DNA of 64,000 bases from Acidobacterium capsulatum ATCC 51196 (lineage in GTDB: Bacteria > Acidobacteriota > Terriglobia > Terriglobales > Acidobacteriaceae): positions 434,001 through 498,000 of the forward strand of contig NC_012483.1 in NCBI RefSeq assembly GCF_000022565.1, in the 5' to 3' direction. A program made the position numbers and the translations under genes. The notes beneath the pieces were generated by a model that was not told the origin of the DNA, searched no databases, and worked only from the letters and a program-made list of their open reading frames with translations. Below are positions 25,101-31,941 of the stretch, piece after piece; position 1 is the stretch's first letter, and each line of letters begins with the position of its first letter.

Positions 25101-26250
25101 GGCGATGGGCCAGACGCACGCGCAGACGCTCATCAGGACCTTTACCGGCGCGGGCAAAGGCAGCATGACGCTGCGCAGCGCAACGATTTATGTAGAGAGC
25201 GCGACGTTCCCGGGTTCTGCCGGCGGCTCGCGGATCTCGGGATCATCGGGAGGTTCCGCGATTTCAGGGCCTGGTGGCGCGTCGCTGACGCCTGCGGTTC
25301 TTTCCGGCGCGGCCGGATCTTCGATCGGCTCCGGTGCCGTCTCGGGACTTTCGATTGCCTCTGACGCCGCAGGCACCGCAAAGAACCTCTCGCAGTTGAT
25401 TCATCCGGCGGCTGCCGCGTCGTTGCAGACGACCAGCATGGAGCCGACAGCGCTGCTCGATTCTGCGGGGAACGTGGCGCAGATGAAGGGGATGCCATCG
25501 TTCCTGCAGTCGAGCAAGTTTTCAGGAACGCTGGCGGCCGGAAGCGCAGGCCTCGGGTTATTTGCCGCGCACAAACAAGGTGGCCTTGGCGGCACGTTCA
25601 ACGGCGCAATGAGTGGAGCGAAGCTCGGCGCGATGCTCGGTGGCCCGGCTGGCGCGGCCGTGGGTGCGATTGCCGGCGCGGCGATCGGCTTCTTTGGTGG
25701 CGGCGAGCAGGCGCGCGTCTGGTGGATCAAACAAGGTCGCCCACGCTTGAATAACGATCTGGACGGCTTTAACCAGGGCACGATGGATTACCTGTCGGCC
25801 TACATGGATATTGAGGCTTTGCGCACGGAAGCAAAGCACACGCTGAACGCGATGGGCTTCGCGGGCAAACACTATCTGGAGAGCACGGTCGACCCCGCAC
25901 TGAGCCAAGCCGAACAAAAACTGACGCGCGAGCAGAAAGCCGGCCGCAGTGCATATGCCATGAGCACCGCGCAGTTTGATGTGGGCTCAGACTCGGTGCC
26001 TCGCGACGGCTACGCCTTTATCCACCAGCGCGAACGGATCATCCCCAGCGATCAGAACGAACGCATCACGCGCGCACTCGAGGGCGGTGGGCCCAGCGTG
26101 CCCACCGAGGGAAGCGGAGGCGATATGCACTTCCACCTGCACACGCTCGATACCTCGACGGCCGAAGACTGGCTGATGAGCCGGGGCAGCGCGATACGCG
26201 CCTCGCTGAACGCAGATTACGCGTCATACGGAGGCATGTCAGATGTCTGA
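22162..26250 (+). CDS. Tail tape measure protein
   Basis: At 1362 aa this is the largest phage gene. ATG 22162 follows GGAGG by 8 bases. The protein is mostly helical and alanine/glutamine-rich, with hydrophobic stretches (e.g. MEAAFAPTLIFAGVAMLWQL) and a glycine-rich C-terminal region (KLGAMLGGPAGAAVGAIAGA). It sets tail length and passes through the membrane at infection. A 71-residue segment near the N-terminus is duplicated exactly (see repeat). It overlaps the next gene by 8 bases. Confidence 0.9.
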   Translation: MPADGTPVVIRIEVMDGNSGTVVASLEKAFQNLGRAGSSAGQQIAQGMAAGNAGINQAAKQAMAQMREGAYNLWPKGNLNAPGGINPQQVPPPLTHWQRARLDEARAADKAARSEEALNAAMLEQADIYSGLTAAAERLTAVRARAGGDWRSYAGLGVPGGYKGNTSVNTAAQDEARAADKAARSEEALNAAMLEQADIYSGLTAAAERLTAVRARAGGDWRSYAGLGVPGGYKGNTSVNTAAQDAEAAAIAEQAASTERHAKAMAAYEAAAKKAADGGAALAAAFDAATAEGLSFEAAMEKAVAVTQEVGTSTRGAARATMGMRTSFAETEVIASAMGGSMRGMEYGLARMVASTRVLGPLMEAAFAPTLIFAGVAMLWQLGESIHGAYQKYVELDVAVNKYAEDAQKAAQQKLFDTASLETANFLLQQANAQIEQMQQLRQESQTLQMGDTATQIAGAMGGGYGPLDQYGVTTKRFTPEDDKRLAAAYVARDKARQAQAQKEHQLAVDALRTQATINETGLRGSALIVQRRRDAVAAAKQEYEWTQRQEQMLAKIANDTRKMQIANGVDPSKLLPLYSPDKNAGKAQFDAAVAQASAAAKQSESQLQREIFQRIDAIREQAAEAGLHGPKLYAQQEAYQIKKTEQAGISASAVRQSLNKITHEKVMAYYREEAQALTDLQMQAEMVGAGGVSRLQIQEQMDINRVNGDTNLDADTKQKERVAIHERTQAQILQSERDFAEQVRQIQNQAASEQLTGYARMEADAQQQKQEQQKQFDQTWKHANLSEPGVSQAHANSLAALRAGNSAIDAGLNQRVREMVKQQQDQAAQTQAQAQAQILSAEGNLTGALEVQYEARTSRFKEQLDEQLKAAGTNDQLIAAAHEEYNAKMMAADESYAARQMELQRRLRDRMAGQLSEFFRNPLRSVQEFGAHEAGMAAASILQGAENHLGIHPEATMQNFWNRISFGQSPHHPLNMAAQAMGQTHAQTLIRTFTGAGKGSMTLRSATIYVESATFPGSAGGSRISGSSGGSAISGPGGASLTPAVLSGAAGSSIGSGAVSGLSIASDAAGTAKNLSQLIHPAAAASLQTTSMEPTALLDSAGNVAQMKGMPSFLQSSKFSGTLAAGSAGLGLFAAHKQGGLGGTFNGAMSGAKLGAMLGGPAGAAVGAIAGAAIGFFGGGEQARVWWIKQGRPRLNNDLDGFNQGTMDYLSAYMDIEALRTEAKHTLNAMGFAGKHYLESTVDPALSQAEQKLTREQKAGRSAYAMSTAQFDVGSDSVPRDGYAFIHQRERIIPSDQNERITRALEGGGPSVPTEGSGGDMHFHLHTLDTSTAEDWLMSRGSAIRASLNADYASYGGMSDV
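22468..22893 (+). repeat. Perfect 213-bp tandem duplication in tape measure gene
   Basis: Copies at 22468-22680 and 22681-22893 are identical base for base as far as I can compare, and in frame (71 codons). Each begins GATGAAGCGCGAG and ends GGCAGCGCAG. Identity at third codon positions means the duplication is recent or an assembly artefact. Confidence 0.95.
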
Positions 26251-27076
26251 GCGTGACGTGCTGAACCCCACACCAGCGTGGCAGGAAGATATCAATGACT
26301 CGATGAGTCCGGACTACGGGTTCGGCAACAATCGGGTCTCGACAGTTGCCACGTTGCAGGCAGTCAGCGGACGGCCTTACGACCGCCAGGTGGGCGTGCG
26401 CGGGCATTCGTTCACGTTCACCTGGAGCAACCGCTCTTATCAATGCGCCCAGCGCATCCGGCAGTTCTTTGAGCAGCATGAACGCGGCTATTTCACGATC
26501 ATCGATCAGGACGGTGGCGGTCGCCACTACGTGGGGCGCTTCACGGGACAACTGCAGATCAGCCCGGTTGGCAATGACATGTGGACCGTGAGCGGATTGC
26601 AGTTCGTGGAGATCCCGGGCGCGCCAATGCTGCAGTATCCAAGCGACTGGGATAACGACAGCGTGTGGGAGCTTCCAATTGATGACGCCGGAGATCAGCA
26701 GCTCGCGATTCAGGGAAACTGGACGCAGACGCAGCATCCGGTTGTGAGCAACGGCGTCCAGGTCGAGCGCTACTCGTTCGATAATCCCGGCACAAACGCT
26801 GTGGACTGGGCGCAGTATGAGTATCGCGGATACGGCTTCCAGCTTCAGCTGCTCTGCGGCCCCGCACAAGGGCAGGCTGACGTTTACCTCGATGGCACGC
26901 TGCTTCAGACTGTCGATTGCTATCTCGAGACGGCCAGCGCCGTGCCTCAGACAGTGCTCACGAAGGTGAATGTCCCGCTGGATCTGCACAGAGTCAAAGT
27001 CATCACGAAGAACGCGAAGAATGCGGCCTCGACCGCTCCTGCCGTCTCCTGGTGGGCGCTCAGGGTGATGCGATGA
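26243..27076 (+). CDS. Minor tail protein (distal tail, lambda M-like position)
   Basis: A 277-aa protein after the tape measure. The N-terminal half has the beta-rich look of distal tail or gpM-type proteins (FTFTWSNRSYQCAQRIRQFF and then GRFTGQLQIS). The C-terminal half is a second beta domain (YGFQLQLLCG, VDCYLETAS) that may be a carbohydrate-binding-type fold. Its order before L-like and J-like genes supports a tail-tip role. It overlaps the next gene by 4 bases. Confidence 0.7.
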   Translation: MSERDVLNPTPAWQEDINDSMSPDYGFGNNRVSTVATLQAVSGRPYDRQVGVRGHSFTFTWSNRSYQCAQRIRQFFEQHERGYFTIIDQDGGGRHYVGRFTGQLQISPVGNDMWTVSGLQFVEIPGAPMLQYPSDWDNDSVWELPIDDAGDQQLAIQGNWTQTQHPVVSNGVQVERYSFDNPGTNAVDWAQYEYRGYGFQLQLLCGPAQGQADVYLDGTLLQTVDCYLETASAVPQTVLTKVNVPLDLHRVKVITKNAKNAASTAPAVSWWALRVMR

Positions 27077-27738
27077 TCCCTTATTCCCAGGCGTTGCAAT
27101 CGGTCATCGGAACGCGCAGCGGCATTGCGGCGGTGCATCTGCTCGACGTGCAGGATCCGAATGGAAACTGCTACTACTGGGCATCTCAGGCGATCAGCGC
27201 GCCCAGCGTGATCACCCCGAATGGACAGCCCGCGACGAACGCTTATGTGCCGTGGGTGCTCGGCGTTCCGAAGCTGCAGTTTCACCGCTCCCAGAGGGCA
27301 GACACGATCACGCTTGTGCTGCAAAATCTCAGCGGCGACACGTTGCAAACCGACTTCGAGCGGATCGTAACCAAGAATGCGCTCACGGGATCGCTGATTT
27401 GTTACCGGCGCTGGCATGCGGCGGCCGAGGACAGCAGCCGCGAGTTTCACGCAAAGATCGAGAGTCTGGTCGGGGTGAAAAAAGTCACGATTACCGCAGG
27501 CCCGATCGACAACGAAAGCGAAGACATTACGCCTCAGTACCAACTTGGCGAGATATGCCAGTGGCGCTGGTCGAGTCCGCAGTGCGGCTCGACGCAGCCC
27601 ACGCCTTGCCAGCAGAGCTTTCCGACGTGCCAGGTACTTTCTCGCTTTTCAGGGATCACCAATAACTTCGAGAAGAACTTCGGCGAAGCGCTCGCCCAGG
27701 TGCAGACCAAAACCATGCAGAGGATCCGCGAGTACTGA
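27073..27738 (+). CDS. Minor tail protein L-like (four-cysteine)
   Basis: A 221-aa protein. The C-terminal part contains four spaced cysteines (CQWRWSSPQC, then CQQSFPTC) followed by RFSGITNNF, the pattern of lambda gpL-type tail-tip proteins that bind an iron-sulfur cluster. Cluster binding here is inferred from that family. ATG 27073 overlaps the previous stop, and its own stop overlaps the next ATG. Confidence 0.78.
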   Translation: MIPYSQALQSVIGTRSGIAAVHLLDVQDPNGNCYYWASQAISAPSVITPNGQPATNAYVPWVLGVPKLQFHRSQRADTITLVLQNLSGDTLQTDFERIVTKNALTGSLICYRRWHAAAEDSSREFHAKIESLVGVKKVTITAGPIDNESEDITPQYQLGEICQWRWSSPQCGSTQPTPCQQSFPTCQVLSRFSGITNNFEKNFGEALAQVQTKTMQRIREY

Positions 27739-30700
27739 TGCCCAGCGCAAACACCACAGCCGTTGTCGACAGCGCCACCACGCCGGGCTCCATCCTGCCA
27801 CTTGCTTACGGCTACGTATGGGTGACCGGGCGCAGAGCTGCATATTTTGAGCTGCAGAACACGGGCAACACGCAGCTCGATTTCACTCGGATCGGCTTCT
27901 GGATCCTTGGCGAGGGCGAGTGGGACGGCTGCCACGAGCAGTGGATCAACAATCAGCTCATCTGGACCTCGGAATGGGACGATCCAACGCAGTTTCACTT
28001 CCACCGCGGCTGCGATGCGCCGCTGACCGCCGGTCTTTATCCGAACAGCTCGGGTCCCGATCAAAACTGCGATTCGTTCTGGTCGTGGTTTCCGGCCGGC
28101 ACGCAGCCGTTCTGTTTTTCGCGTATGGCCTATTACGCGATCTTCCGCAAGCAGTGGATCCAGAACCCTGTCAGCGACCATCAGAATGATCCGTCGAACT
28201 TTGCGGACCTGAATCCGATCGGCCTCTGGCGTAGCCTCAAGGTGCGCATCTTCGACGACCAGGGCAATCAGACTGGCTATGCGTTTTCGACGAATCCCGT
28301 ATGGCAGCTTGTCGATTTGCGCCTGCGGAGAAAGCTCTTCCCGGAATACAACATCGATTTGAACACAGGCATCGATCCGATTCCTGCTGCGGTCAAGAGT
28401 CACTTCTCATGGGGAGATATCTGGAACACCGCGCAGTACTGCGATCAGCTCCTCGCCAACGGCCGCAGACGTTTCGAGTCCAATTGTGCCTTCGCTTCGC
28501 AGACCTCACGCGCGGCTATCCAGGAGCAGATACTCAAGTCGTTCCGTGGCTACACCCGCAAATATGGCTCGCAGTGGTCTGTGCTTTGCGATATGCCGCG
28601 CAGCTCGGTCTTCACTGTTACGCGCTCGCATATCATCCCGGGCTCTTTCAAGGTCGATACGAAGACAGTCTCGAAGGCCGCGAATCACTATGTGGGGCAG
28701 TTCCGCGATTTGCTCGTACCTGCGGTTGCCAACATCGCTGGAATCACATGTGCCGACCACCAGAACCCTATTCTTGAGACTGCTACCCCGCACCCCCTCG
28801 CTCAAGGGGATCGCATTGCGATTGGTGGGACAGACACGATCTATGACGGTCAATGGACGGTTTCCTCCGTGCCTTCCGGCAGCTCTGTAACATCGGCAAC
28901 CCTCGTTTCCAAAGGGTCGAATTATCCCGCCAATGTTGGTGCAGGCGGATCGGTCGGGCTCCTCCAGGCGCGCTTTGAGAAGCGTGCGCCGACGTTCATG
29001 CACCAGAGCAGTCAGATGGCGCGTGGTCCAGTTGGTATCGGGCTGCCGCGCTACCTCAACCGCGTGCCGGTCACGCTCGACCTGGCGACGGGCACGTTTG
29101 ACCAGGTGAGCCGCGTGTGCCGGTATGAGCGGGACAAGGCTTTAGGGCTCGACGTCACGCCGTATGTGGAACCGGTTGCCATCTCGCTTCGTGTACCGCT
29201 GTTTGCGTCCGACGCCGCCGGATCAGGTGCGGTCGCAGCGCAGATTGAGCCGGGCGATCTTGTGACGATCGACGAGTATGCGAGCTTTGCGTACCAGGGG
29301 ACTTATGAGGTGCTCGATCCTGACGAGGCCGACTATGCTCCGTCGGGCGATCCAGCGCTCACTTTTAGCATTGATCCGTCGAGCGGCACGAAGGGGTTCA
29401 CGCTTGGCCCTTACGCTGGCCCTTATATGTATGACGCGACTGATCCTAACTCCGCGACTTACTCGAACGTGCCTGGCAGCGACCCTGGCAATGATGCGCA
29501 GTTTACTGCGATCGACCTTGTCGATAACGGCAAGCTCGCGTTTCTGACCGGCTCGGCTGCAAGCGGCGCGGTTTTCGATCTGCCTTCGACCGGATTTTCC
29601 CCGCAGAATCTGCTCGCGATTGCATCACCTCAGGGTTACATCGAGAAGGGCCACGTCATGCATGTGATCGAGGAGTGTGACGTCGATGCCAATAGGCTTG
29701 TGACGCTGAACTACGAGGACGGCGAGGGCAACATCTGGAACGGGGACGCAAACCTTGCGGCCGTGACTTGGCTGGGAGATAGTACCGCTGCATCCACTTA
29801 TGCCGGCTCTGATGGCATGAACTGGGTGCTGCTGGAATTGGCCGGCGGCGAGCAGATCTGTATCGGCGTCGGCGTTCTGGCTGACTCGGCGCAGATTTCT
29901 TTGCCCGCAGGCTTTTTGTGGTCGCAGGCCTTCGCGCTTTGCTCACCACACGACGGTTATCCCAACGGCAATCAGGCCCATGGTTACGGGGCTTATGTAG
30001 ATGCCGGCGGCAAAGTTCACTGCGTTTTTCAGGATGGGTCGGCTAATAGCTGGACCACAAATGCCAAGGCGCTTGTCTTCGCCTGGAAGAATAACTCGGG
30101 CAACGTGACCACGCAGACCACTGGCGGCGCGAGCTGGATCAACTACACGACGTCCACGGGCTTTGTGCTTGGTGTCGGCCTTGGGACATTCGCCGACGGC
30201 ACTACGATCGGGCTGCCGTCCACAGCAGGCGCGGCGAGCTCGCTGCAGATTTTTCCAACGGTTCATAGCTTCGCGATGGAGTCGAATCCCGCACATGGTG
30301 TGGGTGCTTGTTATGTGGATGCGAATCTTGTCGCTCATTGCTATTTCGAAGATGGCGAGGGGCATATCTGGTCTGCTGATCTCGATGCGTTTCTGCTTTA
30401 TTACGAGCCCTCCGGGGCTTCTGGCACTTCTGTGGGTGGCATCTCTGTGAGTGTCTCGCCATCAGGCGTTTCTGTCCCGCTGGGTGCGACGCAGCAGTTC
30501 ACCGCCTATGTGTCTGGCACTTCTAACACCGCCGTGACCTGGGAGGTTGACGGTGTAGCAGGCGGCAACGCGACAGTGGGGACGATCGACGCGACGGGTC
30601 TTTATACGGCGCCGAGCACTGCGGGCACACACACCATCAGCGCGATAAGCGCTGCAAATGCCGGCGCGGTGGGCACTCAATATGTTTCGGTCGGTACCGG

Positions 30701-31043
30701 CTCGGCGACAGGTGGAGGGAGTACGGCTCAGATTGTGGTCACGCCCCTTGGGCCTTCGATCCTTGCGTCAGCTACTCAGCAGTTCAGTGCTTCTGTTTCG
30801 GGGCTGTCTAACACGGCTGTGACGTGGCTCGTGGACGGGATAGTAGGCGGCAACGCGACCGTAGGCACAATTGATGCGACAGGGCTTTATGCGGCGCCGT
30901 CTACTACAAGCAGCCACACGATCACGGCACAGTCGCAGGCTTCGCCTGGCGTGGCGGGGAGTGCGACTGTCTACATTGGCCAGGTATCAGCCACCGGACC
31001 TGCTTTCGGCGGATCAGGACCGGCTCGGCCAGTGCTCGCGTGA
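27738..31043 (+). CDS. Tail tip/central fibre (J-like) with Ig-like repeats
   Basis: A 1101-aa protein that would contact the host. Residues 1-500 are hub-like (LPLAYGYVWVTGRRA at the start, IIPGSFKVDTKT further on). Residues ~595-895 hold three diverged copies of a ~90-residue module ending in patterns like YEDGEGNIWNGD, FQDGSANSWTTN and FEDGEGHIWSAD. The C-terminus has two Ig-like (BIG2-type) repeats sharing GGNATVGTIDATGLY, of a kind common in acidobacterial surface proteins. It is the last recognisable phage gene. Confidence 0.82.
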   Translation: MPSANTTAVVDSATTPGSILPLAYGYVWVTGRRAAYFELQNTGNTQLDFTRIGFWILGEGEWDGCHEQWINNQLIWTSEWDDPTQFHFHRGCDAPLTAGLYPNSSGPDQNCDSFWSWFPAGTQPFCFSRMAYYAIFRKQWIQNPVSDHQNDPSNFADLNPIGLWRSLKVRIFDDQGNQTGYAFSTNPVWQLVDLRLRRKLFPEYNIDLNTGIDPIPAAVKSHFSWGDIWNTAQYCDQLLANGRRRFESNCAFASQTSRAAIQEQILKSFRGYTRKYGSQWSVLCDMPRSSVFTVTRSHIIPGSFKVDTKTVSKAANHYVGQFRDLLVPAVANIAGITCADHQNPILETATPHPLAQGDRIAIGGTDTIYDGQWTVSSVPSGSSVTSATLVSKGSNYPANVGAGGSVGLLQARFEKRAPTFMHQSSQMARGPVGIGLPRYLNRVPVTLDLATGTFDQVSRVCRYERDKALGLDVTPYVEPVAISLRVPLFASDAAGSGAVAAQIEPGDLVTIDEYASFAYQGTYEVLDPDEADYAPSGDPALTFSIDPSSGTKGFTLGPYAGPYMYDATDPNSATYSNVPGSDPGNDAQFTAIDLVDNGKLAFLTGSAASGAVFDLPSTGFSPQNLLAIASPQGYIEKGHVMHVIEECDVDANRLVTLNYEDGEGNIWNGDANLAAVTWLGDSTAASTYAGSDGMNWVLLELAGGEQICIGVGVLADSAQISLPAGFLWSQAFALCSPHDGYPNGNQAHGYGAYVDAGGKVHCVFQDGSANSWTTNAKALVFAWKNNSGNVTTQTTGGASWINYTTSTGFVLGVGLGTFADGTTIGLPSTAGAASSLQIFPTVHSFAMESNPAHGVGACYVDANLVAHCYFEDGEGHIWSADLDAFLLYYEPSGASGTSVGGISVSVSPSGVSVPLGATQQFTAYVSGTSNTAVTWEVDGVAGGNATVGTIDATGLYTAPSTAGTHTISAISAANAGAVGTQYVSVGTGSATGGGSTAQIVVTPLGPSILASATQQFSASVSGLSNTAVTWLVDGIVGGNATVGTIDATGLYAAPSTTSSHTITAQSQASPGVAGSATVYIGQVSATGPAFGGSGPARPVLA

Positions 31044-31376: not shown

Positions 31377-31405
31377 TTGACCCGCCGCCCGCCCGGTTCT
31401 ACGGT
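31377..31405 (+). promoter_or_regulatory. Sigma-70-type promoter of small transcription unit
   Basis: TTGACC (31377-31382) and TACGGT (31400-31405) with a 17-base spacer. The predicted start near 31412 leaves only a few bases before a very strong ribosome-binding sequence. Confidence 0.55.
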
Positions 31406-31439
31406 GTGGGTACACGGGAAAGGAGGTTGATCCATATCT

Positions 31440-31496
31440 ATGGAAAATTCTGAAGGTAGTTGTTGCAACACAACACGTGAGGTGACTGAGGCTTAG
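31440..31496 (+). CDS. 18-residue ORF with Cys-Cys, leader peptide or small protein
   Basis: ATG 31440 to TAG 31496 encodes MENSEGSCCNTTREVTEA. The ribosome site GGAGG lies 13 bases upstream, longer than usual, but the anti-SD match is exceptional. The adjacent cysteine codons (TGT TGC) and the hairpin on the stop codon resemble leader-peptide attenuation, although no cysteine gene lies downstream. Coding status is uncertain. Confidence 0.4.
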   Translation: MENSEGSCCNTTREVTEA

Positions 31497-31603
31497 AGCA
31501 CCCTTTGCTCTAGACCTGGCGTTTTTAGCGTTATCCGCGCCGAGGCCCATCCGGCAGTCAAGGGTGCCTCAGGTCAAACTCAACAGCTCACCGGCGAAAC
31601 CAG

Positions 31604-31633
31604 GGCCCGGCTGCATCCCGCAACCGGGCCTTT
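31604..31633 (+). terminator. Terminator of the small transcription unit
   Basis: GGCCCGG (31604-31610) pairs with CCGGGCC (31624-31630) and is followed by TTTC. The T run is short, so strength is uncertain. Confidence 0.5.
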
Positions 31634-31725
31634 CGCATCCCCCGCTTGCCGGAAATTCATCCCCTACGCGATACCATAAAAATGGGGCGGGATGCTCGAT
31701 CTGCCGATCCCTCGCTTTTTTGAAA

Positions 31726-31941
31726 TGTGAATCCGGAATCACATTCTCCATGAAGATATAACCTGTTCATTATAAACATGTTAACCCTGAGGAACATGCG
31801 CCTTCGAGTCCTGCAAAAATAAAATGGAAAAAAGTGAATTTACATTCACATATTCCGCAAGTGGCTTAAGAAAGAGCAATATAGGTCAGGTTTTCAGCCA
31901 TTTTCCCCTCTAAAATGCGAATTCCGATTCACATTTCCGCA
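31726..31941. promoter_or_regulatory. Three related palindromes upstream of ribBA
   Basis: Sites at 31726, 31833 and 31916 share an 18-base core TGTGAAT-N4-ATTCACA with one to three mismatches each, and continue into a similar AT-rich end (ATTCTCC, ATATTCCGC, ATTTCCGC). All lie in the same orientation in an AT-rich stretch between 31.66 and 31.94 kb. They look like binding sites for one dimeric regulator. No FMN riboswitch pattern is seen in the ribBA leader. Confidence 0.55.

Follow-up and report, generated by a model that had tools for sequence, protein, structure and literature searches.

A small RNA gene of about 220 bases lies within positions 31377 to 31633 of the window, by which we mean the whole stretch of 64,000 nucleotides analyzed, in the genome of Acidobacterium capsulatum (4,127,356 bases, one contig). 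The DNA in which it is found otherwise looks empty. All the parts named in the original prediction, which had been made from the letters alone, are present there, and together with those identified in this analysis they are arranged as follows:

31377 to 31405, plus strand: promoter, with −35 box TTGACC, a 17-nt spacer and −10 box TACGGT, matching 8 of 12 consensus bases
31418 to 31434, plus strand: complement of the 16S rRNA 3′ tail, GAAAGGAGG-T-TGATCCA, an extended Shine-Dalgarno sequence with one inserted T
31440 to 31496, plus strand: 18-codon ORF MENSEGSCCNTTREVTEA with stop TAG, its frame kept in homologs
31479 to 31484, plus strand: GAGGTG, a hexamer resembling a Shine-Dalgarno sequence, inside the ORF and exactly 9 nt upstream of its stop
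31483 to 31492, plus strand: 5′ strand of P1, TGAC-TGAGGC, inside the ORF, with long-range pairing to 31566–31576
31493 to 31513, plus strand: P2, a hairpin on the stop codon, TTAGAGCA/TGCTCTAG, assessed by pair counts
31500 to 31505, plus strand: 5′ strand of P4, ACCCTT, the loop segment of P2, pairing with 31560–31565 as the pseudoknot helix
31515 to 31545, plus strand: P3, a possible hairpin CCTGGCG/CGCCGAGG, seen by eye and variable in homologs
31560 to 31576, plus strand: 3′ strands of P4 (AAGGGT) and P1 (GCCTCA-G-GTCA), assessed by swap, permutation and contingency tests
31577 to 31594, plus strand: conserved 3′ element, consensus AATCYCAACAG-NNYACCG, near-invariant, noncoding, partly unpaired and adjoining the terminator
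31604 to 31633, plus strand: terminator hairpin GGCCCGG...CCGGGCC-TTT, a 7-bp G+C hairpin (31604–31630) with a weak TTT tail

The unit had been described as running from a consensus promoter to a terminator. A promoter is present, and TTGAC, the promoter spacing and its position relative to AAGGAGG are also found in the homologs (n = 91), but the word consensus overstates the match, and a simple consensus scan called no promoter at the locus. The terminator is present as the G+C hairpin, and homologs again have a hairpin at this place. It is weaker than had been claimed, and the scan for terminators did not call the hairpin at 31604–31633, whose T run is weak. Across 40 genomes the neighboring genes and their strands differ, with yebC-ruvC-ruvA-like genes (cluster names read from order and sequence) often nearby, and blastn against phage and plasmid collections gave no match to the element. 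It follows that this is an independent chromosomal unit and not a leader, and a mobile or phage RNA is rejected. The proposal of a compact independent transcription unit is thus upheld, and the element is a real standalone, usually single-copy, chromosomal RNA gene. Most genomes that carry it have one copy. Two copies occur in genomes G062, G272 and G308, where either contamination or true duplication is possible.

Directly upstream of the element, at 26243–31043, there is possibly a phage-tail-like gene block. Its last gene encodes a 1101-residue protein with a Big_2 Ig-like domain, and Pfam gave no match for two of its three proteins. The block is possibly a remnant of a prophage or gene-transfer agent. 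On the other side, three palindromic repeats of the type AATGTGAATCCGGAATCACATT and a weaker fourth, spaced 53–83 bp, lie at 31723–31939 in an A+T-rich gap before ribBA, and these look like operator sites for a regulator.

The element is conserved outside this genome, in other Acidobacteriota, where it had been proposed that it be sought. It was found by blastn in 22 relatives. A strict pattern, GGAAAGGAGG-N38..67-GAGGTGNCTGAGRC, matched 198 of 300 Acidobacteriaceae genomes and 151 of 200 genomes in a sample of the order, and the reversed pattern gave zero in both. An Acidobacteriaceae-like copy in genome G536 (L260) belongs to a family (f7) otherwise without a pattern match, and may be due to contamination or transfer. 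R1, a covariance model of the 5′ half built on Acidobacteriaceae and one neighboring family, finds copies in further Acidobacteriota classes (54 of 347 genomes at E ≤ 0.01). We judge the element to be older than the family, and ancient. An actinobacterial pattern, in which TRR was required at the stop position, matched 75 of 198 Actinomycetota genomes, including, among the matches listed, one that is plainly false (G1001), the only one with TGG at that position; the reversed control was again zero. Within samples of other phyla, RF02471 (the Rfam model of the small RNA Ms_IGR-5) had no match in 45 genomes from outside Actinomycetota, and a pattern search found nothing in 49 genomes, the fiftieth being a Streptomyces that the pattern also misses. 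Two of 251 Chloroflexota genomes matched the pattern, and one of these matches is real by R1. This copy (L341 in G1241, R1 E 7.9e-6, peptide MIRIWTREVPVL) is the sole convincing one outside the two phyla, and may have come from horizontal transfer or from a mis-binned contig.

At the 5′ end, AAAGGAGGTTGATCC (31419–31433) complements the end of the 16S rRNA of the same genome, GGCTGGATCACCTCCTTTCT. The duplex with the 16S tail has a calculated energy of −27.4 kcal/mol. For 48 ORFs in the window, the best start sites have a mean of −10.0 and a strongest value of −16.3 kcal/mol. The exceptional complement with one extra T noted originally is confirmed. Copies in other Acidobacteriota classes carry AAAGGAGGTGRTC, lacking the extra T, which in the window copy is a lineage-specific insertion. 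Of the 17 copies scored from those classes, 14 pair along the full 18 bases of the 16S tail CUGGAUCACCUCCUUUCU when G-U is allowed, and the rest with 15–17 bases. A 5′ segment complementary to 15–18 of the 18 tail bases is common to the acidobacterial and actinobacterial copies. The start codon in many Acidobacteriaceae lies 12–14 nt from GGAGG, which is not optimal.

The 18-codon ORF is present and its frame is kept. Although the search pattern left the ORF spacing free, all 91 unique homologs have an in-frame start; 88 of them contain an ATG, and in 87 of these the first one is in frame. The stop codon is at a fixed place in 90 of 91 homologs (TAG 79, TAA 9, TGA 2), while the length of the ORF varies in steps of three, ranging from 11 to 24 codons over both phyla. 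One copy (L068, genome G350) reads CAG at the stop position and has an unrecognizable 3′ element, and is probably decayed. The comparative evidence indicates that the mini-ORF is translated. The Cys-Cys pair singled out in the original prediction is not conserved, with about 84% of homologs having any cysteine. Among close relatives the variable codons give pN/pS = 0.70 (44 synonymous and 127 nonsynonymous changes), and most residues are therefore under light constraint. In 82 of 91 homologs the first acidic residue occupies codon 4 or 5 and is encoded by GAC, GAT or GAA. An acidic residue kept while its codon changes points to constraint at the amino acid level, and hints that the peptide matters. 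S-D-S and R-E-V residues recur in the peptides of both phyla. Serine is encoded by AGT in 176 of 289 cases in the homologs, against a share of 7% for AGT among the serine codons of the window. AGT, TGT and GGT codons are strongly preferred, both at 31443–31475 and in the homologs, though the genome is G+C-rich.

The most conserved feature of the element had been missed. This is GAGGUG, placed nine bases ahead of the stop: six bases separate the end of the hexamer from the final sense codon, and the stop comes next. The codons GAG GTG show zero synonymous change in 91 homologs; GAGGTG was required by the search patterns, and it is also seen in model-based matches and in the Rfam consensus of RF02471. 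We take this invariance to reflect constraint at the level of nucleotides. The stop lies 9 nt after GAGGTG in 17 of 17 scored copies from other Acidobacteriota classes, and the same arrangement is found in Actinomycetota copies and in the RF02471 consensus.

Both the hairpin on the stop codon and the long-range pairing that had been predicted survive comparison of the homologs, and the long-range pairing extends to a pseudoknot. Compensatory changes are found in P1, in P2 and in the loop pairing P4, with the caveat that the homolog sequences are related to each other. P1 pairs the last codons of the ORF with the strand just 5′ of the 3′ element. At the variable base of its NCT codon there are 53 A-U, 19 G-C and 15 G-U pairs with one mismatch (T-C) and no A-C. 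P1 takes in the last two bases of GAGGUG, and thus the folded RNA and full pairing with the ribosome are mutually exclusive. In P2, 90% of cells pair, a level reached in 0 of 500 shuffles, and a change of UAG to UAA is compensated on the other arm; a separate shuffle of the P2 arms was left out of the evidence on account of selection bias. For P4 the native partners beat 1000 of 1000 permutations, and native duplexes average −22.6 kcal/mol against −16.7 with swapped partners, with P4 being weak or short in some clades. P2 and P4 together form a pseudoknot around the stop codon. The folding energy of the window copy as a single sequence is not unusual (z −1.55). The long variable inserts in the raw MAFFT alignment kept RNAalifold from yielding a useful consensus, and P2, P4 and P1 were therefore tested by pair counts, swaps and contingency.

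The 3′ element is recovered independently by a sequence model (R2) that matches in seven loci from other Acidobacteriota classes. It is recognizable in the RF02471 consensus, and stands before the terminator hairpin in many copies of both phyla. The window copy deviates from its consensus (AAACTCAACAG). In the rRNA operon, no stretch of at least 8 nt is exactly complementary to this element.

The locus had been thought to match no known family. This holds for the window copy, which has no family match in Rfam and scores 9.6 bits against RF02471 where the gathering cut-off is 45; the whole genome has no RF02471 match above that cut-off. Ms_IGR-5 is reportedly first known from M. smegmatis, Li et al. 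2012 being said to be the discovery paper. The claim does not hold for the homologs, since two in Acidobacteriota (L292 and L293) pass the cut-off with 50.3 and 50.6 bits over the full model (1–184). In the opposite direction, R1 was run on 32 loci from outside Acidobacteriota fetched by RF02471 or by pattern (31 actinobacterial and one from Chloroflexota). It finds 30 of them at E ≤ 0.1, including L327 at 5.7e-11 and L309, from Streptomyces, at 1.1e-10. The Rfam consensus of RF02471 reads ACACAaGGAAGGAgGugGuCc...GUGAGGUGgCugCccGCuaG...gAAUuCCccGcAGuCACCCGG, with GAGGUG, nine bases and UAG. The order of parts in Ms_IGR-5 is the same as in the element: an ACAC 5′ end, AAGGAGGUGGUCC, GUGAGGUG, 9 nt and UAG, then a helix at the stop, an AAUNCC...AG..CACC element and a terminator. 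The window copy differs in its inserted base in the 16S complement, its longer ORF and its P1/P2/P4 pseudoknot, and it lacks the GGUCC/GGACC hairpin around the ORF start. GGAC/GACC before GAGGTG is found in 10 of 17 other Acidobacteriota copies and in 22 of 22 actinobacterial copies scored. With its low score and without this hairpin, the window copy is a sister of the family and not a formal member. The element is almost certainly homologous to Ms_IGR-5, to judge from these sequence comparisons, as a divergent sister in one ancient superfamily. What the two phyla have in common is the 16S-tail complement, the short ORF, GAGGUG 9 nt from the stop, and the stop helix. Expression of Ms_IGR-5 as a standalone small RNA has been published for M. 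smegmatis (PMC10454040), S. lividans (PMC8079986) and S. avermitilis (PMC8780764), and ribosome profiling gave significant ribosomal reads on its homologs in both M. abscessus and M. smegmatis (PMC4974804). Neither a function nor an ORF is described in these four papers.

Our best reading, which we place somewhat short of an even chance, is a translation-coupled switch or buffer, with ribosomes loaded through the 16S complement and held at the stop codon of the mini-ORF. The 5′ complement would capture 30S subunits, and the captured ribosomes would translate the mini-ORF. Once the stop codon has entered the A site, the distance from GAGGUG to the P site would be the one usual for initiation, and the hexamer could pair with the anti-Shine-Dalgarno sequence and hold the terminating ribosome. 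The holding of the ribosome by GAGGUG is deduced from the spacing alone, and we regard it as possible but not yet probable. A held ribosome would keep P1 and the stop-codon pseudoknot open, leaving free the 3′ half with its AAUCCCAACAG element. When ribosomes are scarce, the RNA would fold. It might in this way report or buffer translation, or store ribosomes. The AAUCCCAACAG element would be the putative output site, with protein binding, RNA stability and ribosome holding as candidate outputs.

Micropeptide and ribosome titration were rightly listed as options at the outset. A plain mRNA for a functional peptide of 11–24 residues, with the strong Shine-Dalgarno sequence giving high expression and the structure controlling decay or termination, is an unlikely explanation, yet it retains some weight. 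The frame is kept everywhere, and the early acidic residue, encoded by synonymous codons at position 4 or 5, together with the recurrence of S-D-S and R-E-V in both phyla, keeps the micropeptide reading alive. It fits poorly with a pN/pS of 0.70 in the variable codons, a length that varies, best-conserved codons without synonymous change, and a near-invariant element that is noncoding. We think it rather improbable that the RNA is a ribosome sink, an antisense to the 16S tail that occupies the anti-Shine-Dalgarno tails of 30S subunits with no switch. The 15–18 tail pairs in copies from two phyla, the strength of the window duplex relative to the ORF mean and the second anti-Shine-Dalgarno match inside the ORF would all be expected of a sink, but it leaves the kept frame, the fixed stop distance and the pseudoknot unexplained, and titration would need a very high copy number. 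Translation-gated small RNAs are known in enteric bacteria, and a trans-acting regulatory RNA, with AAUCCCAACAG as its seed or protein site and an ORF that does no more than set the accessibility of that site, would account for a near-invariant, partly unpaired 3′ element beside the terminator. Complements to this element with one mismatch across the genome, however, revealed by eye no pattern of start-site targets, and the window copy itself has a non-consensus sequence at this place; we give this explanation a low probability too. An attenuator leader of ribBA, a gene that follows after about 400 bases and has the same orientation, is suggested by the leader-ORF-like plan and the terminator-like hairpin, and leader function had been among the original proposals, but it is highly improbable and is rejected, given that the genes downstream in 40 other genomes differ and are often on the opposite strand, with no co-directional gene conserved.

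Under the switch or buffer reading, the RNA would dock ribosomes twice, and the held ribosome would be the signal by which translational capacity is sensed or buffered in Acidobacteriota and Actinomycetota; we consider this broader role conceivable but on the whole doubtful. A small RNA family filed as actinobacterial and noncoding extends to Acidobacteriota and keeps a short reading frame. Its organization centers on the ribosome: it is fully complementary to the 16S tail, and another match to the anti-Shine-Dalgarno sequence is locked 9 nt before the stop. If the ribosome is indeed held at the stop, this would be a kind of translation control for which, to our knowledge, no precedent among small RNAs has been described, and Ms_IGR-5 of mycobacteria and Streptomyces would thereby gain a directly testable mechanism.

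Other known systems resemble the element in part. The mRNA of a type I toxin encodes a hydrophobic membrane peptide, while the homolog peptides here are rich in Ser, Asp, Arg and Cys, and this candidate is rejected. tmRNA, too, is small, carries a short ORF and contains pseudoknots, but the element has its own start codon and Shine-Dalgarno sequence and no tRNA-like domain; ARAGORN called no tmRNA in the window, and there was no match to tmRNA in Rfam. Leader-peptide attenuators too have a short ORF whose last codons lie in competing RNA structures. The element differs from these in having no conserved downstream gene and no conservation of codon identities. At the programmed frameshift site of prfB, which encodes RF2, the ribosome is acted on by a Shine-Dalgarno-like sequence that lies within the gene close before a stop codon, and an internal sequence of this kind near the stop is what the element shares with prfB. 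The prfB sequence lies about 3 nt from the P-site codon and serves a +1 shift inside a long gene, whereas in the element 6 nt separate the hexamer from the final sense codon, the ORF comes to its end at that point, and all three stop codons are in use.
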